Shown here: positions 1 through 11,583 of the stretch, one piece after another | How positions within the stretch are numbered: the first letter of the stretch is position 1 | Layout: each line of letters opens with the position of its first letter | Assembly: GCF_009827405.1 (NCBI RefSeq) | Contig: NZ_WTYY01000001.1 | Coordinates: 124,001 to 188,000, forward strand | Origin: Alteraurantiacibacter aestuarii | GTDB taxonomy: Bacteria; Pseudomonadota; Alphaproteobacteria; Sphingomonadales; Sphingomonadaceae | DNA: 64,000 nucleotides | Direction of reading: 5' to 3' | Position numbers and translations under genes: made by a program | Notes under the pieces: generated by a model | Told to the model about the DNA's origin: nothing | Databases searched by the model: none | What the model saw: the letters and a program-made list of their open reading frames with translations, nothing else

Positions 1-2314
1 CTTCGGCCAATGTTTCGGCAAGAACGGCCACTATCGGATGAACTCTGCCGACATGTGTGACATTCGGTCTGAGGTCATCAGCAAAACTTATCTTCCTGGT
101 GCCCTTCAGCCCGCGAACGGACAGCTGATCCCGCATTGTTTCGGGCAGCGAATCCAGATGCGCCAGCGTGAAATCTCCTTTGCGTTCCAGCGGAGCCTGC
201 ACTCTTCTCAGCGCCCGATCAGTGAATCGCGCGACCTCTTCCGGCCCGCCGTTCAGTGCCCGCATCCTGCGCCATTCGGGGATCACTTCGTCGGGCTTGA
301 GCGCACCCTGAGCATAACGAGCTCGGCTGGCCTTGGCGCCCTCCGCCGTGTCGCGCCACGCCATCTCGAAGCGCTCAGCCGATGTATCGAAGTCAAAGAC
401 GTACTGGGTTCGCGAGCCATCATTGCGCAGCAGCACAGCCTGCATGAGCGCAGAAGTCACACTATCCTGGTCCTCAGGCATCGGCACATTGACGCCGGTT
501 GCCTTCTCGATCTCCTTGGCCTTGCGGATGATTACATTGAGGACCGCGCCATCGATTGCGCTGTTCTCTCCATACATCATGACTGAGCGGACAATTTCCG
601 CTTGTTGACCGAACCGGTCAACCCGACCTTCGCGCTGTTGGTGACGCGTCGGGTTCCAGCTCAGATCATAATGGACCACAGTATCGAATGCGCTCTGCAG
701 ATTGATCCCTTCTGAAAGGCAATCGGTCGCAACCAGGATGCGCTTGTCATGGGCCTCCAGTGCGGCCACCCGTTCACGCCGCTCGTCGGGGGTCAGAGTC
801 CCGGTCACCACAGCCACTTCGAACTTGGGATATGTCTCGCGCAGAACCTCGCCGAGAGCTTCGGCCGTGGCAATGAATCTGCAAAAGATGACCGGATTTG
901 CGCCCTGCTTCAGCAAGGGCGTAAGTTCTGCCAAAAGAGCGCGGACCTTCGGATCTTCATCGCGCCTTCCATCAAGCCGATGAGCTGTATCGATGAGTCG
1001 GCTGAGAACCGTCTGCTCCTCACTCGCCTCGATCGCCGTAGCCGGCTCAATGTCGCCTTCGTCCATCACACCGTCTTCCGCATCGAACACAACCGGTTCA
1101 ATCGCTGTGGCATCTGAGGTTCCGCTCAACCGATTGGTCAGTGCACTGGCCGCAGCAGCCGGAGATGAGCCCACGCAGCGCATCAGAGCAAGAGTGCCCC
1201 AGAAAGCTAGCCGCCGCGTCTTTTTGTCCGCGCCAGCACGTTCGGTCACTTCAAGACAGTAGTCGAGCACGTCCTCCTGAAAGGTTGCGAAGTCCCCTGA
1301 AAGGGCATATGGAGCCTCCTTGGTTTCGTGACGAGCGAAGGCACGCTTCTCTTCCCAGCTGTCCTGAATGTCCGGCCTGCGGCGTTGGACGAAGTGCTGC
1401 GCCAAGCGCCTGGCATAACGCTCGCGGGCATTGGCATCCCCTGCCTCTGGTCCGCCAGTCAGATCCGCATGGATCAGCCCGAGAAGGCGGTCGTAAGCTG
1501 CAACATCACCGCTATGCGGGGTTGCTGTCAGCAAAAGCAGATGGCGGTCCGGATCAGAGGCGAGAGACTGGAGAAGTTCGAAGCGCTGGTGTTTGCCGCG
1601 CTCTCCCCCAACGCATGTATGTGCTTCATCGACGATAACGAGCGGAGGGCACGCGCGAGCGAAATCATCGCGGCGGCTATCAGCCTTGATATAGTCTAGG
1701 CTGACTACCGTGAATGGATAGGCCTCGAACAGGCTCTGGGAAGTGGGAAGTCCGCGCTCGAGACTGCGCGCTCGCGCTGATGTCACCGCGACCGCATCCA
1801 CATCAAACTTCTCAGCCAGCTCTGTCACCCATTGGTCGACCAGATGCGGCGGACACAGGACCGCAAAACTATCGACTGTCCCGCGGTCGAGCCATTCTCT
1901 CAGGATCAATCCCGCTTCGATCGTCTTTCCGATCCCCACATCATCGGCAATAAGTAGGCGCGCAACCGATTGCTTGAGCGCCACCATCAGGGGGACCAGC
2001 TGATAGGCGCGCGGTTCGACCCCGAGGTGCGCAGCGCTTCTGAACGGACCCGCGCCGCGCCTTAGAGAAAGGCGCAGCGCATCAGCTAGAAGTTGAGCCC
2101 CTTCCTGGGTGTCGAGCCTCTCCGAAGTTGGCGCAGCGAAACTTGCCGGCGTGATTGGCATTGCTTCAAGTGAGGGCGCAATGACCTGAGCATCCGCGTC
2201 CGAGCCGGATAGAGGGCGGATCTTCAGCAAGCCTTCCGAAGGTGAAGGCATGACAATCCACTCGCGGCCCCGCGCCTTCACAAGGTCCCCAGGGGTAAAG
2301 GCGAAACTCTCCAT
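1..2314 (-). CDS. SNF2-family DNA helicase/translocase (C-terminus beyond left edge)
   Basis: About 770 residues are visible, with no stop codon on the minus strand down to base 2; the C-terminus lies outside the window. SNF2 hallmarks are present in order: a Walker A of the form ADDVGIGKT with Lys about 130, a DEAH box about 229-232, a TATPH motif III, and the helicase C signature EGRVDRFGQ about 555-565. SNF2 proteins use ATP to translocate on duplex DNA. The start is fixed by a TGATG junction with the upstream helicase gene (one shared base), so the two are translationally coupled. DrmD of DISARM and DpdE are SNF2 proteins in comparable clusters, but the assignment to such a system is inference. 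What follows downstream is unseen. Confidence 0.85.
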   Translation of the reverse strand, partial: MESFAFTPGDLVKARGREWIVMPSPSEGLLKIRPLSGSDADAQVIAPSLEAMPITPASFAAPTSERLDTQEGAQLLADALRLSLRRGAGPFRSAAHLGVEPRAYQLVPLMVALKQSVARLLIADDVGIGKTIEAGLILREWLDRGTVDSFAVLCPPHLVDQWVTELAEKFDVDAVAVTSARARSLERGLPTSQSLFEAYPFTVVSLDYIKADSRRDDFARACPPLVIVDEAHTCVGGERGKHQRFELLQSLASDPDRHLLLLTATPHSGDVAAYDRLLGLIHADLTGGPEAGDANARERYARRLAQHFVQRRRPDIQDSWEEKRAFARHETKEAPYALSGDFATFQEDVLDYCLEVTERAGADKKTRRLAFWGTLALMRCVGSSPAAAASALTNRLSGTSDATAIEPVVFDAEDGVMDEGDIEPATAIEASEEQTVLSRLIDTAHRLDGRRDEDPKVRALLAELTPLLKQGANPVIFCRFIATAEALGEVLRETYPKFEVAVVTGTLTPDERRERVAALEAHDKRILVATDCLSEGINLQSAFDTVVHYDLSWNPTRHQQREGRVDRFGQQAEIVRSVMMYGENSAIDGAVLNVIIRKAKEIEKATGVNVPMPEDQDSVTSALMQAVLLRNDGSRTQYVFDFDTSAERFEMAWRDTAEGAKASRARYAQGALKPDEVIPEWRRMRALNGGPEEVARFTDRALRRVQAPLERKGDFTLAHLDSLPETMRDQLSVRGLKGTRKISFADDLRPNVTHVGRVHPIVAVLAETLAE

Positions 2315-5300
2315 CAATCTGCTCCAAGTGCTTTCATGAGCTCGGCCGGTGGCGCATCGCCGGGAGCGGCTGGCAGAATGACCAGATCAAGAATTCCATA
2401 GGCGGTCGCCTCTTGGCCGAGCTCTTCGGTCGGTTCGCCCACCACGGCCAGCACATCGCGCGCTGGCCAATAGAAGGGGTAGGTGGCGCCGGCCAATTGC
2501 AGGGATTTTGGTTCCGGCAGGCCCCAACGCCTGAGCGCATCGTTCCACGGATCTTCGTTGTCTTCGTTTGAACTGCTCGACGGTTTTGCTCCGGCCAGAT
2601 CGCAGAAATAGGCGACCACTTCGGCATTGCGGCGATCGATCAATTCATGATCCGGCTGGTTGAAATAGGAAAGAATGCAGCGATAGCAGCCTGCGACACA
2701 TGCGTCCTCGGCCTCGCTGATCTTGTCCGGTTCATACGGCGCCGCGTAATGCATGAGCTTGAGCGCCCGCTGCGCGACCGCTGACATGTTTTCCGGATTA
2801 GAAACCAGCCGGTTCAGTACTCCGGCTCCGCCTTCTGTCGCTTCATAAAGCAGGATTGCATTGCGCAATTCCCGCGTCGGCAGGGGCTCGCCGAGCAGTT
2901 CACCCTCTTCAAGTTCGAATTCGATCTGCACGGCGCGAATAAGCGCATGCTGGAACGTCGCCATCTGTCCCTCATCGAAATTCATCAGAGGCCGAAGCAG
3001 CAGTGCATTCTTCCGGTCCTCGACAATCGGAACGATCCGCTGCGGGCCCGCTTTGGTCGGATCTCCCATACCGTTATCATCATCGCCGTTCGCCGGATCC
3101 TTGAGCCATCGGCCGGTCTGCGGATCTATGAAGAAGCCGAAGATCGATTTCGACTTTCTCCTGCGAAGCCCCTTGTTGATCCGGATCAGCCGCGTTGCCG
3201 GCCCATAGTCCAGATGCAGCAGGCCGCCATTCTGAGAGCCGAGCACCACCGATCGCAGCTGGGCCTTTCCGTTATGCATCGGCCATTGGAAGACAGTCTG
3301 GATTTCAAAACCCCGCCGCTGCCGGTCCTCGTCATTGGCCGTTATCCGGAGCGAAGGAGAAGTCTCGACATTGTCGATCCGGAAAACCGTCTCGATCCGC
3401 TCAACGCCGCCCAGGGAGCTGTTACAAGCATGACAGCGTTCCTGCAGCTCATCGGTATGCGCTGCGCCGCACTCCCCGCACAGAATGAGGATCGACGTCG
3501 CCAGCTTGCCGCTGTCCAGCCGTCCTTCTGCCGGAAGCTTTGCCTTGGTCACCCGGTAAGCTCGGCCTTCGTGATAGATAAGGCTGTTGGGCCCGAATTC
3601 AGCAATGGCCAAAAACCGGGGCCGCTGGAGAACCGAGCTTCGCGCTGCTGGCACAAAGGCATAAAGCGGCAGTCTCGGAAAATTGTATCCAGGCAGGAAA
3701 CCCTCGGTCGCAAGGTAACGGTAGGCATAGAAGTCTGAGCCACTGGACGACTGGCCCCGCTCGAGAATCTCCAGCTCACGAGAGGCATTCCTGTAACGAC
3801 CTGCTGCAGCCGTGCGCTCACCTGGCCTGAGCCCACTCTTTTGCTGAATCTTGTGGGCCCGCTCCTGTTCTTCGCGGGCGCCATTGTGAAGATTGCGCCA
3901 GCGGTCAAAGCTCGCGTCAAAGACAGACAGCGCCTCCTCGTCGGTTTCAGCGACAAAGGCATCTACATCCTCAAGCCATGGCGCATCCTTGATATCGATC
4001 GAGGTCAGCATCGCTTCAATCAACCGGCGCATGGTCGGGCGCGCGGCATGGGAAGCCGAGATCGCTTCCATGCCTTCGCGAATTTCGAGCGCAATCGGCA
4101 TACCAGGCTTGGTCATGTCGAGATTCTCAGGAATCGACGGCTGCAGAGGTACCTTGGCCTTGGCCAGCCACTCGGCCTGCAAATGCGACTTGAGCAGATC
4201 CTCGTTCGCAAGATCGAGCGCAGGCGGCCTAACCACACCTGCGACCAACGCTGCCCGATCTGCGAAGTAATACTGATCATGGGGGGACATGGCTGCGCAG
4301 TAGGTAACCACCAATGCTGCCTGGCCGCTCCTGCCAGCACGGCCCGAGCGCTGCGCATAGTTTGCTGGGGTCGGCGGCACGTTACGGAGAAACACGACGT
4401 TGAGCGCGCTGATATCGACGCCCAGTTCCATGGTCGGCGAACAGAACATGGCTGGGAGAAAATCGGTCGATTCCCCCTGGTCGATCATGCGTTCACGATC
4501 TTCCTGGATGAGCTCCTGATCCGCCTTCTCGTAGCGGAAACGCTCTTCGCGCCATTCACGAACCTCCTGGTCAACCTGCGCAGTATGTTCGCGTGCCTCA
4601 AAGGCATGCGGAAGAGGTCCGCTTTCTGCGAGCATTTGACTCACCTGCAGATAGAGCGCGCGGAAGAAGCGATTTTCGCGCTTTCCGTCATCGCGTTGCT
4701 CCGCGGGAAAGAGTCTCAGCGCTGTCGGAGACACGCGCCAAGCTGGCGCATCGAAACCAGAATTGATGCGTCTGACGAACTGGTGCGCCTCCGCTGCTTT
4801 GATCAGCGTTTGGATCACCTCATCGTAATCCTTGGGCGGAAGCTGTTCTCCCCAGATTGACTTGTCGCGCAGCGCCTTGGCCAGTTTGGTTCGGCTGCCA
4901 GCACGCAGGATCAGGTCTGCCTCAGCCGCCCGCACCTTGGCCTGGCGCGGCGGATCAATCATCAACATGCCGCTTTCGCGCAGGCCTTCCTCTTCTTCTC
5001 TGTCGATGGCCCAGGGGAGCTTGAGATGACTGCGCGAGGATTCCGCCGTCTGCCGGACCCGCATACGGTCGAGCGCATCAGTAGAGACGGCCAGGCCCTG
5101 TCGCATCTGATTGAAGAGGATCTCGAAAAGCTTCTTCCGCTGTTCGGCGCTCAGTCCAGCGAGCAGGGCATTCTCGGCAAACTCTTCATCATCACCCGCC
5201 AAGTCATCCAGTCCCGGGAACGCAGCGCTGATGAGACCCACTTCTTCAAGATTCGGATTGGTATACCGCCATCCTCGCCGGAGATCCGCCCACAGGCGGT

Positions 5301-7464
5301 GAGCGAGAATTTCGGAGAGCGTCTCCTCAGCCTGCTGGCGGTTCGCATAACCCTTGACGTTCGGGTCGAGCATCCAATCGCCTAGACGGCCCGGTTCCTC
5401 GAGATCAAAGCCAAGCGCTTCCCGCACCGCTTCGCCAAACTTGGCAGGCGCCAGCCCTTTGGGTCCGGCATCGCGAACCGCCCGAAGAACAGCCCCGCGC
5501 AGCAGCGTAACAAATATGAAGTCATTGAAGTGACCGGCCTGAAGCGCCGCATCCTGCCTGTTATCGGTAAAGCCGAGCAATTTGCGTGTGTATTCATCGA
5601 GCGATCCGTCTCGTTCCATCCATGCCAGCACAGTTGAAACAATCAGGGTGGTCGCAGAACTTCGCCCCTCGGCTGAAAGACCGGCAAGCTTGTTGATCTC
5701 ACGGGCCTGCTGCGAGGGCTGATGTCCGCAATGCGCGCAAAAGCGATACTTGCCCCTGAAGAACCAGCCAAGGACACCCTCGTCATCGAAAGAGCCATCA
5801 CTCGTTAGCCTTAGAGGAATACCTTCGTGCTTCCCCCTGTGGGTAGATTTCAATCGCTCCTGCCCTGATGCACTCAGCTCCTGCCAGTCATCGGGATAGT
5901 CGGTCACCTCTCCGGAGAAATGAAAGTCCGCGTTGACCGCGGGGACCAGATACCCCGTTTCTGCACCGTCGAGCTCGACATCATCGCCAACGGGCTCATC
6001 AATCGAGCGAGCCAGGACCATGCGCTGGCCGTCCTCGTGGGTGAGAGTGACGCTCAGGTGTTCCTGTCCGCATTCCCGGCAAAAGAAGACCGGATAGAGA
6101 CGCGCCGTCCCATCATCGGGGTGGAATTTCTGACCTTCGAGACAGACCCTTCGATCCTTGGCAGTTTCCAAGGTCACATAGGCCTGCCCCGCGCCAGAAA
6201 TGAAGCGGTGCAGCTTGAAGGCCAGAAATGCACGGGCGCCCGATCCACCGCGCTCGATTTCAGGGCGCCCCATCATCGCGAGCATATTGGCAATGGCGGT
6301 TTCGCATAGATCGAGAGCGAGCCCCGTTTGCTCGGCAATCTTGGCGGAAGCGTCCGGCAGGGTCATCGGTATGCGGCGCCTGAGCTTTTCTCCCTCTTCT
6401 AGGCCAACTTCGGTCTCTATCCAGCATGCAAGCGGATGCTGCTTCAGCTCTTCGTCGGTCAAATCGGCCGGGAGCGGCGCCAGAACCGCGTCATTCAGCT
6501 TCTGACCCAGATTGGTAGCCTTCATAGCCGTTGAGGTTGCTCGTTCTAGCAGTTCGTCGATCACATTGGCCGGTGCGATCGGCTGGCCGAACAGCTTCGT
6601 GGCTACCTCCGCGACAGCTTCGGCCCTCTTCTGATCGTCGGAGGAACTCGACATCGTTGCCGATGTCCCGATGCAGATCATCTCTGATGACGGGCTTAGA
6701 CGCTCCTTCACCCTGCGAACCAGCATGGCGACGTCGGCCCCCTGCCTGCCGCGATAGGTATGCAGCTCGTCAAGGACGAGAAATTCGAGCCCCTGGGCAT
6801 TTCCGATCACCGACTGGTCAAGCTGGCCCTGGCGGGTCATCAAGAGCTCAAGCATCATGAAGTTGGTAAGCAGAATGTCGGGCTTGCTCTGCGCAATCGC
6901 CTCGCGTTCTTCCGCAGTTTCCTGGCCCGTATAGCGAGCGACTGTCGGCTTGAGCTCGTCCTCGACATTTGCTTCAGCGACAAACTTGCGGATTTCCGAG
7001 AGCTGACTGTTTGCCAGCGCATTCATCGGATAGATGATGATTGCCCTTGTCCTCGGAGCCTCGCCAGCACGCTTCGCCCGAACAATTGCGTCAACGATCG
7101 GGACAAAGAAACAGAGCGACTTGCCCGAACCGGTGCCGGTTGTGACGACAAAGCTCTCGCGGTTTCTGGCCTTTACGACCGAGCGTTCCTGATGACGATG
7201 AAGCCGGATTGGCGTGCGCTCGCTTCCGAAGGCGAAGATATCCTGGAGCGCGGGGTCGACAACGCCCTCCACCGACAGCTCGGACATAGTCTTGCCTTGT
7301 TCAAACCGCGGATTGATGGTGATGAGAGGATCCGGCCAGAACTTGCCCTGCTCGTAAAGCGCCGCGATCTGATCGCTGATCTCGGGCGCTCTTATAGATG
7401 AGAATGATCGGGCAAAGGCAGCATATTGATCAACGAGTGAGCGATCCAGATCAAATACGTTCAT
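2314..7464 (-). CDS. Giant DEAD/DEAH helicase with DUF1998-type (MZB-like) C-terminus
   Basis: 1716 residues. The N-terminal helicase core shows Walker A TGTGSGKS (109-116), DELH (232-235), SAT (268-270) and a motif VI QRSGRAGR about residue 1040, so the two RecA lobes are separated by a very long insert. Cys pairs that could bind zinc occur about 464 (CRECG), 578 (CAHCG) and 1329-1346 (CGECG, CHAC). The C-terminal CVAGCYRC about 1588 resembles the DUF1998/MZB domain of Hrq1/YprA-like helicases. In DISARM the helicase (DrmA) and DUF1998 (DrmB) parts are separate proteins; here both sit on one chain, as in DpdJ-like helicases. It is the third gene of the minus-strand operon and is coupled to the SNF2 gene. 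The family call is firm; the defence role is inferred. Confidence 0.85.
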   Translation of the reverse strand: MNVFDLDRSLVDQYAAFARSFSSIRAPEISDQIAALYEQGKFWPDPLITINPRFEQGKTMSELSVEGVVDPALQDIFAFGSERTPIRLHRHQERSVVKARNRESFVVTTGTGSGKSLCFFVPIVDAIVRAKRAGEAPRTRAIIIYPMNALANSQLSEIRKFVAEANVEDELKPTVARYTGQETAEEREAIAQSKPDILLTNFMMLELLMTRQGQLDQSVIGNAQGLEFLVLDELHTYRGRQGADVAMLVRRVKERLSPSSEMICIGTSATMSSSSDDQKRAEAVAEVATKLFGQPIAPANVIDELLERATSTAMKATNLGQKLNDAVLAPLPADLTDEELKQHPLACWIETEVGLEEGEKLRRRIPMTLPDASAKIAEQTGLALDLCETAIANMLAMMGRPEIERGGSGARAFLAFKLHRFISGAGQAYVTLETAKDRRVCLEGQKFHPDDGTARLYPVFFCRECGQEHLSVTLTHEDGQRMVLARSIDEPVGDDVELDGAETGYLVPAVNADFHFSGEVTDYPDDWQELSASGQERLKSTHRGKHEGIPLRLTSDGSFDDEGVLGWFFRGKYRFCAHCGHQPSQQAREINKLAGLSAEGRSSATTLIVSTVLAWMERDGSLDEYTRKLLGFTDNRQDAALQAGHFNDFIFVTLLRGAVLRAVRDAGPKGLAPAKFGEAVREALGFDLEEPGRLGDWMLDPNVKGYANRQQAEETLSEILAHRLWADLRRGWRYTNPNLEEVGLISAAFPGLDDLAGDDEEFAENALLAGLSAEQRKKLFEILFNQMRQGLAVSTDALDRMRVRQTAESSRSHLKLPWAIDREEEEGLRESGMLMIDPPRQAKVRAAEADLILRAGSRTKLAKALRDKSIWGEQLPPKDYDEVIQTLIKAAEAHQFVRRINSGFDAPAWRVSPTALRLFPAEQRDDGKRENRFFRALYLQVSQMLAESGPLPHAFEAREHTAQVDQEVREWREERFRYEKADQELIQEDRERMIDQGESTDFLPAMFCSPTMELGVDISALNVVFLRNVPPTPANYAQRSGRAGRSGQAALVVTYCAAMSPHDQYYFADRAALVAGVVRPPALDLANEDLLKSHLQAEWLAKAKVPLQPSIPENLDMTKPGMPIALEIREGMEAISASHAARPTMRRLIEAMLTSIDIKDAPWLEDVDAFVAETDEEALSVFDASFDRWRNLHNGAREEQERAHKIQQKSGLRPGERTAAAGRYRNASRELEILERGQSSSGSDFYAYRYLATEGFLPGYNFPRLPLYAFVPAARSSVLQRPRFLAIAEFGPNSLIYHEGRAYRVTKAKLPAEGRLDSGKLATSILILCGECGAAHTDELQERCHACNSSLGGVERIETVFRIDNVETSPSLRITANDEDRQRRGFEIQTVFQWPMHNGKAQLRSVVLGSQNGGLLHLDYGPATRLIRINKGLRRRKSKSIFGFFIDPQTGRWLKDPANGDDDNGMGDPTKAGPQRIVPIVEDRKNALLLRPLMNFDEGQMATFQHALIRAVQIEFELEEGELLGEPLPTRELRNAILLYEATEGGAGVLNRLVSNPENMSAVAQRALKLMHYAAPYEPDKISEAEDACVAGCYRCILSYFNQPDHELIDRRNAEVVAYFCDLAGAKPSSSSNEDNEDPWNDALRRWGLPEPKSLQLAGATYPFYWPARDVLAVVGEPTEELGQEATAYGILDLVILPAAPGDAPPAELMKALGAD

Positions 7465-7694
7465 TGTTCACCCGGCCCCACTTTCCCGACAACGTCGTTG
7501 GCTAAAGACTACAAATCCGAAGGCTTGTCGAGCCTGCCGGATACTAAAGAATCACGAAAATCATTGATCAAAAACCATTAAATATAGCCAGCGATCTCCG
7601 AAGCGTGGCCTGGATGAACTAGGATAGGGTAGGGAAATTACTGCGACGGAAGGGATACACCTCCCCCGAATGGCAAGAGAGGATGCTTCATTTT
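7465..7694. other. 230-bp gap inside the helicase operon
   Basis: No convincing gene is seen. The stretch separates the 511-residue protein from the helicase and is AT-richer than its surroundings, especially about 7550-7590 (runs such as aaaaaccattaaatatag). It is long for an intra-operon gap, so an internal minus-strand promoter is possible; I could not identify clear -35/-10 boxes. Confidence 0.4.
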
Positions 7695-9230
7695 TCATGT
7701 GTCAGTAGACTGAAGCTGATCACATTCATGCAAAAGGCTAAGCGCTGTCTCAAGACGATCCGGCGTAGCATTTGGTGAAGTTCCTTGTCCGATGCCTTGA
7801 GCAAGGCGCCAGCCGCCCTCGTCAATAAACAGCCTCAAGCGCAGGATCATTTTCCCGTTCCCTCTCGCATCTTGAAGGCCGCGGCCAACACTCCAATAGG
7901 TGTGCTGTGCAAAGATCCAGCCTTCTAGCAGTCGGGAAATGAATGCGGCCGGCAGCAGATCAGCCCAAGCTTTCCACTCGCGCGCCGCTTTCACTAGCGG
8001 AAGCCGGTCTGGCCTCTCGAATGGTTGAGGTTCGTCTGGCGCCTCAGCAATGCAAAAGCGCAGTGCGCTGATGAGGGCTGTAGCGAGACCTTCCCCATTG
8101 CCGAAGCAGGCCGAGATTCGGTCGAGATGTTCGATCGGATCACTTCCAGGTTCGAATTGCTCAATCCAGGCGAGCGCATCATGTTGTCCAGAATAGCCAC
8201 CGGCCTCATCGAGAAACCTCAATGCCAATTGGCGGGTAGTAAGCGGAGCTTCCTGAAGTTCGCCTTGGCACCAATAGAGGAGTCCCTCGAGTGCCAGGCG
8301 AAGAACCTGTCGCACCTGCATCCGGCGCCACCGCGCGGCGAATGGCAGCAAGTCTTCAGGAAACCCTATTCCATCGGGATTGGCCATTAAGCGGCGGACA
8401 TCGTTTGTGTCATTCACTCCATCGGTATCATGGAGAGCTGCATATCGAACAAGCTCGAGACCCTTGCTCCGCACAGATCTTCCTTCGCCCGCATTGATCC
8501 TGCGCCAAGCCGCTGTTCTCCCTTGCTCGGTGAGCTGATCCATTTGCCATAGTTCACCCCACCGCTTCACATCCTCGAGCTCGACAGTGACTTTCCCAAA
8601 CACATTGAATGCAGGGTGATCCAGCTCTGCTGCCATGCATTCTTCGAATGCATCTAGCGCTTCCTCAAGCGCAGGATCTCCCTCGGGATTTGTCTTATAT
8701 GCGCCGGGTTCCGTGATCGGATTTCCTTCAAGAGAGCTCAGGTCGGCGATCCACCGCATGTTTCTCAAACCCGGCCCATAATTCACAGCGGCAATGAGGC
8801 CTGTCGAGTAGCGCCTGGTATCGCGAAATTTCTCCCAGGCCTTGCCTGAGAAGGTGTAGCTCTCTGTCTGGACGAGGAATGCCAACGCCGAACTGCCCGG
8901 CAAGTCTGTTTCTCGGTCAACTGCGAACTGTGACCAAGCATAAATTGTCTCGATACGATCGACGAAGTCGCGCATATCCTTGACCGAGACCCGCTTATGT
9001 TTGCGGACCAACTGGTTGCAGCGCCGCCAGGCCCAACTCATCAGCAAGTAGGGACGAACATGCCGCGCCACATTATTCAGGCCCGGCAACACCTGATCCA
9101 TCATGTCAAAGTTAATCTGGCGCAATCCTAATGGATCAACGCCGCCGATTTGGACATCGCACTCATCGACGACCTGCGCCTCAGGTGCCTTGCTCGCATT
9201 GTCGATGACTTCTTCAAGCGTGCTCGCCAT
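7695..9230 (-). CDS. Unknown protein of helicase/PLD cluster (DUF6361-like)
   Basis: 511 residues, soluble, without signal peptide or membrane segment. I do not recognise a catalytic motif. Residues 31-72 (VDPLGLRQINFDMMDQVLPG, then a conserved-looking R-P-Y-hydrophobic-W stretch) recall the N-terminus of DUF6361 proteins, which carry D-x-LGI, a 'lFPG' turn and a TRAKYF-W segment; this is from memory and needs a profile search. The middle is rich in Trp and acidic residues. The gene starts one base after the PLD gene stops, so the two are almost certainly co-translated and probably act together. It may be a structural or target-recognition subunit of the putative defence complex. Confidence 0.6.
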   Translation of the reverse strand: MASTLEEVIDNASKAPEAQVVDECDVQIGGVDPLGLRQINFDMMDQVLPGLNNVARHVRPYLLMSWAWRRCNQLVRKHKRVSVKDMRDFVDRIETIYAWSQFAVDRETDLPGSSALAFLVQTESYTFSGKAWEKFRDTRRYSTGLIAAVNYGPGLRNMRWIADLSSLEGNPITEPGAYKTNPEGDPALEEALDAFEECMAAELDHPAFNVFGKVTVELEDVKRWGELWQMDQLTEQGRTAAWRRINAGEGRSVRSKGLELVRYAALHDTDGVNDTNDVRRLMANPDGIGFPEDLLPFAARWRRMQVRQVLRLALEGLLYWCQGELQEAPLTTRQLALRFLDEAGGYSGQHDALAWIEQFEPGSDPIEHLDRISACFGNGEGLATALISALRFCIAEAPDEPQPFERPDRLPLVKAAREWKAWADLLPAAFISRLLEGWIFAQHTYWSVGRGLQDARGNGKMILRLRLFIDEGGWRLAQGIGQGTSPNATPDRLETALSLLHECDQLQSTDT

Positions 9231-9231
9231 G

Positions 9232-11583
9232 TCAGAGCTCCCTCGAAATGATCAGTCTGCGGCAACGGTTTGCACAGCGGGTAAAGCCAAATTGCAGCAA
9301 TTCCTGCGCGTTCCCCGTTGGCAGAACCAAATGACACTTGGGGCATCCAGTGACAGGGTCATCTACGAATTCGATACGCTCTCGCGCTTCAGGATCTTCG
9401 TGCAAGCGTTGAAAGACGGGCCAATGTTCGCTGCCTTCAAGGAGGGGCAGGGCGGGCAATTCGCGGTCGCCCGGACATTCCAACAAGGTGTGAATCTCTT
9501 CACGGTGAGTTCGCACGCTCGCCAACATTTCGCGTGCCTTTTCGAAATCAATGCCTGGCGGAAAGTACACATGAAACGCAGGCAGCCTATCAGCATCAGC
9601 GTTCTCAAGCTGAGACAATAACCCGTTCCTGCGCAGCAAGCGCCGCGCCTTACGTGCAGTATCCGCACTCGGTGAATGGGCGACGCGGACCAGCTCGAGT
9701 GCCAATACATCTTCGGCCAAATCGCCTTCAACAATCTCAGGTAGATCGCGCAGAATCTTATCAAGCCAGATTTTTACCCGGTCGTTCGGTGGCCGAATTC
9801 TGTCGACCAGATAATGGGCGATACCCAACATCATTTCAGCAAAGCGGCCCTCATTTTTCTTTTCAAGCGCTGCATCGAGAAGCTTCGAAAAGGAATCGAT
9901 TGCCTTCTCGTTTGCGCGCTCGTCGCGCGTCATATCTCTTGTGGCGTCCTCAGACAGGCTCTCGCCAGTATCATCGGAAGCCATTGCCTCGGAACGGAAG
10001 GGGCCACGGCTAGAGCGAAAGGCCTTGAGCAAAGCAGCCATTGCCGATTGCCATCCAGCTGATCGCTCGCCGCTTCCCGATGATCCCTTTTCAAGGAAAT
10101 GGGCCCGCTCAATCATATCGGCAGTCACAATCTCGTCCGGCGCTACAAGGGCCTCACCCTTCGTTCCTGCCGCCTTGAACTGTGCTCGCGGCATGCGTGA
10201 AGGGTCCTCGTGGAACCATGCCATTATTGCCGCGACATCCTCAGGCGTCTCAGTCCCAGCCAGAACCGACAAGATCCTCGATGCAGCTTGACCAGCGCGC
10301 TGCATGAGTGCGGCCACTGCGGTAATCATCAAAAAGCCTTCAGCAACCTTATCGTCGGCTTTCAATCTTATGACGACGCGGCCCCTGCTCCAGACTCGTT
10401 CAGCGAGCTGCTCAGCACGCTGCGAAAAAGCCATGTTCTTATCGACTTCAATTTCCCCGAGATCGATGAGTTCACCCTCGATCTCGCAGGTCATACTCGC
10501 TGGGCCAGAGGTCCAGCTTGTTAGGACGGATCCCTGGATTGTTGTGCCAACGAGTTCGGCTGTTAGAATCTGTACCTGCTCTTCGTCGACATTTTGGTCA
10601 TCGTCCTCGATCGCCGAACGAACGGGAGCAGGGCAGTGAGCAATTGACCAAGCCCCATGACGGTTGGGCTCGATCCTTAGGATTCCTGCCTCCATGTTTG
10701 AGCCAAATAAGGCTGCGGACGTTGCGTTCGCGCTTCCTGACAAAAGCAAACGACCATTCCGGCAAAGGATCTCAATCGACTTTGCATGCAGCAGGCGGCT
10801 GTCCGCAGCAAACTTCTGATCTATCTCGACTGGCGCCAATACTTCTTCATTCAGAATTGACCAATTGCCCCCGGCAAACCCTCTTACCGTCCCTGCATCA
10901 TGGACATACCCCGAGACATCGAAGCAATTCAGCAGCTTGCTGAGCCGCGTAACTCCTGCTCCCTTCACATCGTAGAATGGCGACATGAAACAGATACGCT
11001 CTGCTCCGCCCAGTTCGTCCGCTTCTTGCTGAAGCCTCTCGGCGATCGTTCCGGCAGCGTTGTGGACAAGCCGAATTCGGCCGGATCCCGTCTTACCTTG
11101 AGATGCGCGACGCAAGCCATCTGCCGTCTGCGCAATCCTATTCGTCGCCGGCAATCGGATGCGTTCATCGATTTCGAGTAGTTCTAAGAACTCGGCAGCA
11201 TCGGCGATCGCCTCAGGGGCAAAGCTGGGATGCAAATGTTCGACCAATTCAAAGTTTCCGCCCCAACCACCAAAGGTGAGGTTGCCCGATCCGACTAGGA
11301 GGTGGGCGTCACTGTCATTGAGGAAAACAGAGAGTTTGGGGTGGAATACGCCGCCAACCCGCTCGACAGGAAGCAATTCATAGTCGCGGCCAACTAGACG
11401 GGCGCCAAGCTCGGATAATCCGGCACGCACACCTTCCGGGTCAGACAATATTGTAGGATTTCGCGCTCCGCCGCGAATGAGGGCATCGATCACCACTGCC
11501 TCAAAGAACGAGAGGCTCAGAGAATAGGTCGTAAAAAGGACACTATTCCAAGGTGCCGACTTTGCTAGCTCCAATGGGTTCAT
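9232..11583 (-). CDS. Phospholipase D-like nuclease-type protein with C-terminal Cys pairs
   Basis: 783 residues. Two half-motifs of the PLD superfamily are visible: H81-P-K83 followed by GSGN (98-101), and a second H-A-K about 266-268 followed by GSAN about 282-285. The canonical Asp of HxKxxxxD is not obvious, so catalytic competence is uncertain. PLD proteins in defence loci (DrmC, DpdK) are predicted nucleases. The middle is helical and charged. The C-terminus has CPKC and a second Cys pair near residues 745-775 that could bind zinc. This is the first gene of the operon, and the start ATG lies 130 bp from the end of an IS6-family element. It is much longer than DrmC, so it is not a simple orthologue. 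Confidence 0.75.
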   Translation of the reverse strand: MNPLELAKSAPWNSVLFTTYSLSLSFFEAVVIDALIRGGARNPTILSDPEGVRAGLSELGARLVGRDYELLPVERVGGVFHPKLSVFLNDSDAHLLVGSGNLTFGGWGGNFELVEHLHPSFAPEAIADAAEFLELLEIDERIRLPATNRIAQTADGLRRASQGKTGSGRIRLVHNAAGTIAERLQQEADELGGAERICFMSPFYDVKGAGVTRLSKLLNCFDVSGYVHDAGTVRGFAGGNWSILNEEVLAPVEIDQKFAADSRLLHAKSIEILCRNGRLLLSGSANATSAALFGSNMEAGILRIEPNRHGAWSIAHCPAPVRSAIEDDDQNVDEEQVQILTAELVGTTIQGSVLTSWTSGPASMTCEIEGELIDLGEIEVDKNMAFSQRAEQLAERVWSRGRVVIRLKADDKVAEGFLMITAVAALMQRAGQAASRILSVLAGTETPEDVAAIMAWFHEDPSRMPRAQFKAAGTKGEALVAPDEIVTADMIERAHFLEKGSSGSGERSAGWQSAMAALLKAFRSSRGPFRSEAMASDDTGESLSEDATRDMTRDERANEKAIDSFSKLLDAALEKKNEGRFAEMMLGIAHYLVDRIRPPNDRVKIWLDKILRDLPEIVEGDLAEDVLALELVRVAHSPSADTARKARRLLRRNGLLSQLENADADRLPAFHVYFPPGIDFEKAREMLASVRTHREEIHTLLECPGDRELPALPLLEGSEHWPVFQRLHEDPEARERIEFVDDPVTGCPKCHLVLPTGNAQELLQFGFTRCANRCRRLIISREL

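Follow-up and report, generated by a model that had tools for sequence, protein, structure and literature searches.

The window, by which we mean the whole stretch of 64,000 nucleotides of Alteraurantiacibacter aestuarii DNA that was analysed (G000:C1:124001-188000, from an assembly of 2.24 Mb that is 69.7% complete), carries four minus-strand genes at its left end, and ORF calling confirmed that these are co-directional, as the first-pass annotation had it. In the direction of transcription they encode P0001, a 783-aa PLD-superfamily protein recognised from its motifs and structural model (w9232-11583, w denoting positions in the window); P0002, a 511-aa mostly helical protein, the N-terminal part of which is weakly DUF6361/ZacA-like (w7695-9230); P0003, a 1716-aa YprA-family helicase with a fused MZB/DUF1998 region, assigned by Pfam and by phylogeny (w2314-7464); and P0005, a SNF2/RapA (BrxHII-like) helicase of 929 aa in full (w1-2317, running past the left window edge). 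We refer to the first two genes as module A and to the helicase genes, with those that follow them, as module B. The proposal that the four genes are mostly coupled is borne out within each half, there being 1 bp between the PLD and 511-aa genes and a 4-bp overlap between the two helicase genes, and fails in the middle, where the gap between the 511-aa gene and the helicase gene is 230 bp, so that coupling is partial and does not extend over the whole cluster. A scan of w7300-12000 for promoters and terminators found sites no more frequent than in shuffled sequence.

The operon continues beyond the left window edge, also on the minus strand, with an Eco57I/PglX-type methyltransferase (MTase) ORF of 1288 aa (G000:C1:119665-123531; Pfam, PADLOC) that overlaps the SNF2 gene by 4 bp, a small ORF of 94 aa (G000:C1:119106-119390), and the gene for P0006, a 264-aa HNH_2 nuclease (G000:C1:118315-119109), the start of which is overlapped by the end of the 94-aa ORF by 4 bp. 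The reported absence of a methyltransferase holds for the window itself and is an artefact of the window edge, because the operon runs on into one; the suggestion that further genes of the branch lie to the left was thus well founded. Neither DpdA nor 7-deazaguanine genes were found among the six genes left of the SNF2 gene (Pfam, PADLOC).

Directly after the HNH gene lies a co-directional gene for a 603-aa protein (L002:8327-10138; G000:C1:116327-118138, minus strand), an AAA/NACHT-like ATPase for which the AAA_22 and NPHP3_N matches are both sub-threshold and which has no PADLOC match and no solved relative; its N-terminal stretch resembles, by eye, a PD-(D/E)xK/Mrr nuclease motif, and it is possibly a further defence gene. 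A serine recombinase and a DUF3489 gene (L002:3860-5584 and 5925-6320), left of the defence genes, suggest the left end of a mobile island.

The helicase-methyltransferase operon and ARMADA Type I

As had been described, P0003 combines helicase and DUF1998 parts in a single chain of 1716 residues (Pfam DEAD, Helicase_C and MZB), with five CxxC motifs (residues 462, 576, 1329, 1344 and 1593). Its best PADLOC model is DruE1 (E 4.6e-88), and YprA (6znp, E 2.4e-21) is among the proteins of solved structure to which it is related in sequence. P0005 has a Pfam SNF2-rel_dom domain, with DpdE as its best PADLOC model (E 4.5e-192) and DrmD also matched (E 1.8e-78); Walker A and DExH/DEAH motifs are present in both helicases. 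The MTase matches Eco57I (E 5.1e-21) and DrmMI (E 3.3e-62), and P0006 matches HNH_2 (E 2.5e-9). The MTase reading frame stops early in this genome, its conserved tail lying in another frame: the last 106-109 residues of the relatives L015 and L101 match L002 at approximately 11660-11390 in a different frame, so the 3' end is frame-broken in this assembly, and this copy may be damaged or misassembled.

ARMADA has been defined, in the available text of a recent preprint, by a YprA-like helicase clade together with a BrxHII-like helicase and a PglX-like MTase (Bell et al. 2025 preprint, PMC12458937). The order is generally YprA-BrxHII-PglX in Type I, the architecture of which includes a BrxA-like insert, a beta-barrel zinc module and a MarR-like insert, and BrxHII-PglX-YprA-UvrD in Type II (PMC12458937). 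Module B has the Type I arrangement described there, i.e. YprA with fused DUF1998 first, followed by the BrxHII-like helicase and the PglX-like MTase, the three genes being coupled here by 4-bp overlaps, and strong relatives with the identical order occur in several phyla. The YprA-SNF2-MTase order is seen here and in nine annotated plasmid loci reached through the helicase, with the exceptions that the A. caldus locus has insertions between the genes and that the Deinococcus MTase is two CDS. Hosts of plasmids with this order are Agrobacterium, Croceicoccus, Deinococcus, Roseomonas, Kozakia, Sphingomonas and Nocardioides. At E<=1e-100, helicases like P0003 occur in 6 out of 289 genomes for the class and in 14 out of 398 for the phylum (the window genome counted in each).

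In a helicase tree of 18 rows, in which the branches of DruE and DrmA are long and five of the forks, deeper ones among them, are unsettled, P0003 falls in a seven-row group (100/100) of helicases from YprA-first operons. By contrast, the ARMADA II helicases, taken from Microvirga and from an E. coli plasmid carrying Zorya II, a DruE-type helicase and an ARMADA II island, group with DruE (97/99), apart from P0003. The ARMADA Type II/Druantia III island of E. coli (L127, L130) shares the helicase and MTase families with module B (SNF2 identity of 27% and MTase identity of 26-29%, over the matched parts), and differs in gene order, in its UvrD-type fourth gene and in its separate tree branch. 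Gene order and phylogeny thus fit the assignment of module B to ARMADA Type I, rather than to a distinct system, which had been one of two options considered for the four genes.

Vsr nuclease domain and HNH gene

In the text of the preprint, ARMADA I and II both have a C-terminal Vsr-type nuclease that is predicted to be active (PMC12458937). The corresponding domain of P0003 (approximately residues 1629-1716; w2317-2580, minus strand), which was compared in an alignment of 15 sequences and with the C-terminal sequences of 37 loci, is degenerate, in that the DGPHH loop is absent and the aspartate of the PDF motif is replaced. Five intact C-termini, from Deinococcus, Roseomonas, Nocardioides and two further genomes, keep the DF-Y and DGPHH motifs. 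In the window's helicase and nine others accompanied by an HNH gene the flanking elements are kept, and a nine- or ten-residue block including DGPHH is missing in all ten; the first catalytic aspartate (PDF) is retained in L100 and L107, whereas most of the ten, the window's helicase included, have another residue there. Because the loop is absent and the aspartate replaced, module B is to be seen as a variant of ARMADA Type I, and it differs further in that its operon ends with the small ORF and the HNH gene. What is new in module B is the loss of the Vsr motif and its association with the HNH gene; in the main text of PMC12458937 the term HNH occurs in a reference title only. The HNH gene overlaps the preceding gene by 4 bp in Sphingomonas MM-1, in Paracoccus marcusii and here, which argues that it is a member of the operon in these three loci.

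Among ARMADA loci gathered by helicase similarity, a loosened form of the Vsr pattern (a stricter form missed L085, L086 and L098) was present in 15 and absent in 21 of 36 helicases, L110 and L111 being scored as motif-less while retaining Vsr fragments. The presence of the HNH gene was assigned manually, on the basis of the fetched stretches and of replicon- or genome-wide searches with P0006, two of the genomes so searched being only 69-75% complete. In the 35 loci scored for both features, the HNH gene accompanies 16 of the 20 motif-less helicases and none of the 15 intact ones. The MTase precedes YprA in L085 and L086, which makes their ARMADA type less sure; when both are excluded the HNH gene is found with 0 of 13 intact loci. 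The counts leave out L105, in which HNH was unscored, the Acinetobacter locus L106, in which YprA is split into three ORFs, no Vsr motif is visible by eye and the HNH gene is present, and L126 and L129, which have an intact Vsr motif and no HNH gene within the fetched stretch.

The association is strong when kinship is ignored (Fisher p 1.9e-6). On the 36-row tree, however, four Vsr losses are needed, of which only two bring HNH, and a phylogeny-corrected comparison has two informative pairs only and hence no power; no more than one or two events in evolution underlie the association. In the 18-row tree Hydrogenimonas is placed with the HNH clade (94/96), so a single origin of the exchange is possible. 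Streptomyces L110 and Chlorohelix L111 lack both the Vsr motif and an HNH gene, the latter having a weak HNH match about 100 kb away, and in genome G538 two weak HNH matches lie on other contigs. Two loci lie inside the HNH clade yet are without the gene: in Kozakia (L019) it is absent from the whole plasmid and an IS21 element directly follows the MTase, and in G480 (L083), where there is no HNH match, the ARMADA contig ends inside the MTase. We take the apparent replacement of Vsr by HNH to be a correlation at the level of lineages.

Several ARMADA I operons with HNH carry an extra gene of approximately 620-660 aa between the MTase and HNH genes (L014:26435-28417, L100:12855-14714, L104:26862-28844 and L011:817-2760), annotated as SMC-like in three of them; it has no match in the window's operon.

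The PLD protein and its helical partner

P0001 has two HxK...GSxN...E half-sites (H81/K83/N101/E112 and H266/K268/N286/E298), followed by a middle beta region, a helical region and a C-terminal Cys cluster. The half-site residues do not vary across an alignment of 28 sequences that includes P0001. The Cys pairs attributed to this 783-residue PLD protein correspond to one CxxC motif (C747) together with C770 and C774. The Pfam PLDc_2 match is sub-threshold (23 bits, cut-off 27). The best PDB match of the AF2 model (pLDDT 84.6) is TDP1 (8cw2_B, E 1.2e-9, TMt 0.49), followed by polyphosphate kinase, SauUSI and BfiI. P0001 shares with TDP1 the two-lobed PLD fold, with two HxK...N half-sites of its own, and differs from it in sequence (10-12% identity) and in the additional beta, helical and Cys-rich C-terminal parts. 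There is also a partial PADLOC match to ZacB (E 6.6e-14) and a profile-profile match to ZacB-type proteins (E 8.6e-13), so that P0001 is predicted, in part from its modelled structure, to be a TDP1-like protein with two HKN half-sites and a remote relative of ZacB.

The AF2 model of P0002 is confident (pLDDT 88.3, pTM 0.85) and matches nothing in PDB or BFVD at E<=1e-3, and its sequence has no match to solved structures at E<=0.01; the fold may be new. The description of this protein as DUF6361-like stands only in part. There is no Pfam match, DUF6361 included, and no PADLOC model match; by hhalign, an alignment of P0002 with 25 homologues matched DUF6361 (PF19888) at E 0.0019 and 0.0012, and at 0.0049 with a wider DUF6361 set, whereas seven other families all gave 0.24 or more. 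Of 30 column-shuffled controls one reached 0.0012, the next being 0.094, so the likeness to DUF6361/ZacA stays suggestive. Zac (ZacABC, a PADLOC candidate comprising DUF6361, PLD and helicase proteins, the names ZacA, ZacB and ZacC being those of PADLOC models) is thus the nearest known arrangement, P0001 being a relative of ZacB and its partner weakly ZacA-like. The two differ in that DUF6361 precedes PLD in Zac, whereas here PLD comes first, the proteins are larger and there is no ZacC helicase; no ZacA match to the pair was obtained, and no Zac genes were assigned in 39 pair loci. Mention of ZacABC or DUF6361 was not found in the literature searched.

Loci of the 511-aa protein were collected by tblastn of plasmids (eight records, seven of them used, H8 with 47% cover being left out) and by scanning 84,980 species genomes with a pattern, which gave 31 more, some nearly identical. 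With the window counted, the PLD gene precedes the 511-aa gene in 38 of 39 loci, the exception (L034) being cut by a contig end; in 37 of the 38 the spacing is -20 to +10 bp with the order unchanged, and in R. leguminosarum L010 the PLD gene is broken. In three of the 39 loci ARMADA adjoins the pair: in the window, in Ensifer adhaerens Lc04, where PLD-partner-YprA-SNF2-MTase-HNH lie on one strand, and in Rhizobium gallicum R602, where the pair and ARMADA I are divergent. Some of the pairs sited elsewhere adjoin Zorya, Gabija-, Septu- or restriction-type genes. Of 20 neighbouring proteins selected and scanned against PADLOC, a sample that includes no random-gene background, 11 match defence or candidate models at E ~1e-40 or better (ZorC, ZorD, MkoA-like and MADS-type, both over part only, type I REase, PDC-M26A/B, PDC-S49, PtuA, GajA and a GajB-type UvrD helicase), two are type II methyltransferases and seven have no PADLOC match. 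A ParB-like gene is the commonest shared neighbour in Sphingomonadaceae (9 of 38 loci).

The pair is probably a travelling two-gene cassette and a candidate small defence system of its own, undescribed as far as PADLOC, Pfam and literature searches show. A phage origin was rejected: P0002 was unmatched in 50,697 phage records, and none of 22 pattern matches in viral_contigs was confirmed. In a Caulobacteraceae MAG (L036:1541-6214) the pair is followed by an ARMADA-type HNH gene that is 45% identical to P0006 over the matched part; the contig, of 9.4 kb, carries no ARMADA helicase. In a genome of the same family (L006, G110:C1:3202468-3202626) a remnant of 55 residues with 51% identity to the 511-aa protein is possibly a deletion scar of the pair.

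Relation between the two modules

The locus is best explained, and in our view likely, as two neighbouring modules, an ARMADA Type I operon with an HNH gene and a separate mobile PLD/partner cassette, with the actions proposed below. The single operon of four genes that had been drawn is rejected, because conserved co-occurrence of the four is lacking: 36 of 39 pair loci have no ARMADA helicase in the fetched stretch (several of which end at contig edges), and 33 of the 36 ARMADA loci examined have no pair (with upstream coverage ranging from none to 14 kb). The same counts speak against a composite system, in which the pair would be a true ARMADA accessory supplying a second nuclease and a sensor for the helicases. 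The direct adjacency in the window, E. adhaerens and R. gallicum, the HNH gene that overlaps the pair by 4 bp in L036 and the canonical Zac triple (DUF6361-PLD-DEAD) that precedes ARMADA I in Mesorhizobium AR02 all favour such a system, but the orientation of the pair relative to ARMADA varies and defence islands produce co-location anyway, so that we consider it unlikely. It may also be asked if the window's ARMADA copy has lost its defensive function through decay, of which the dead Vsr domain and the MTase frame break would both be marks. The 3' frame break would accord with decay, as would the 69.7% completeness of the assembly; however, the break may be an assembly error, and loss of the Vsr motif is common to all 18 helicases of one clade in the 36-row tree, so is not local decay, which leaves this explanation improbable.

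The kinship to DISARM and Dpd that had been noticed is real at the level of families, since the SNF2 protein is DrmD/DpdE-like and the MTase DrmMI-like, as in DISARM Class 1, and the helicase is DruE-like; membership of DISARM, Dpd or Druantia is nonetheless rejected on NCBIfam cut-offs and on the tree, and we judge a divergent subtype of any of them very unlikely. P0003 scores 86 of the 800 bits required for DpdJ, and the SNF2 protein, scanned cut at 772 of its 929 aa, scores 284 of 610 bits for DrmD and 190 of 500 for DpdE; the curated cut-offs of both Dpd models are thus missed. P0001 reaches 23.5 bits against DrmC (NF038319, cut-off 133), with ~45 residues matched. The helicase and DUF1998 parts that are separate as DrmA and DrmB in DISARM are fused in P0003, separate drmA/drmB genes being absent, and the tree places P0003 with the YprA-SNF2-MTase operons, not with DruE or DrmA; no Dru partner was seen among the best matches of the neighbouring proteins scanned.

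For the two-module reading, what was observed is which genes are present, how they are ordered and coupled, which motifs are kept or lost and what co-occurs; the biochemical steps, and any anti-phage activity, are inferred from this, for module B by analogy with ARMADA II and DISARM. Phage assays in the text of PMC12458937 cover ARMADA Type II, for which all four genes are needed and cells survive (PMC12458937); most of the motif mutants abolish protection and two only weaken it (PMC12458937). The module B MTase would mark or sense host DNA, the two helicases would load on incoming unmarked phage DNA and translocate along it, and a nuclease would destroy it without the cell being killed. The separate HNH protein may cut in place of the loop-less, helicase-fused Vsr nuclease, and would then be the effector. 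In module A, the most likely reading is of a TDP1-like PLD phosphodiesterase that its constant helical partner either directs or holds back, the two forming a remote Zac-like nuclease/sensor pair that lacks the helicase of Zac; the TDP1-like fold prompts the speculation that protein-linked or blocked ends are attacked.

A more specific form of the two-module reading, to which we give somewhat less than an even chance, proposes an HNH subtype of ARMADA I, with members among the alphaproteobacteria and in Acidithiobacillus, Acinetobacter and Hydrogenimonas, whose gutted Vsr domain has been replaced by HNH in trans. Adjoining it would be a defence system of two genes, not described before, that comprises a TDP1-like phosphodiesterase and a helical protein with a new fold and might act on phage DNA ends that are protein-linked or 3'-blocked. 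Judged from sequence, the locus holds a known defence system, in a variant with HNH, beside an undescribed two-gene candidate. The nuclease swap, if true, points to the cutting protein of ARMADA I and provides natural 'Vsr-dead' helicases for testing, and the PLD/helical pair is a compact candidate of ~3.9 kb, which annotation based on Pfam and PADLOC may miss because their models do not recognise its second protein.

On a plasmid of Mesorhizobium sp. AR02 the DUF6361-PLD-DEAD triple (L104:6152-12209) is followed directly by AbiE-type genes and an operon of the ARMADA I-HNH kind, and on a plasmid of Nocardioides sp. JS614 (L108) DISARM drmA/drmB adjoin ARMADA I, followed by McrBC-type genes.
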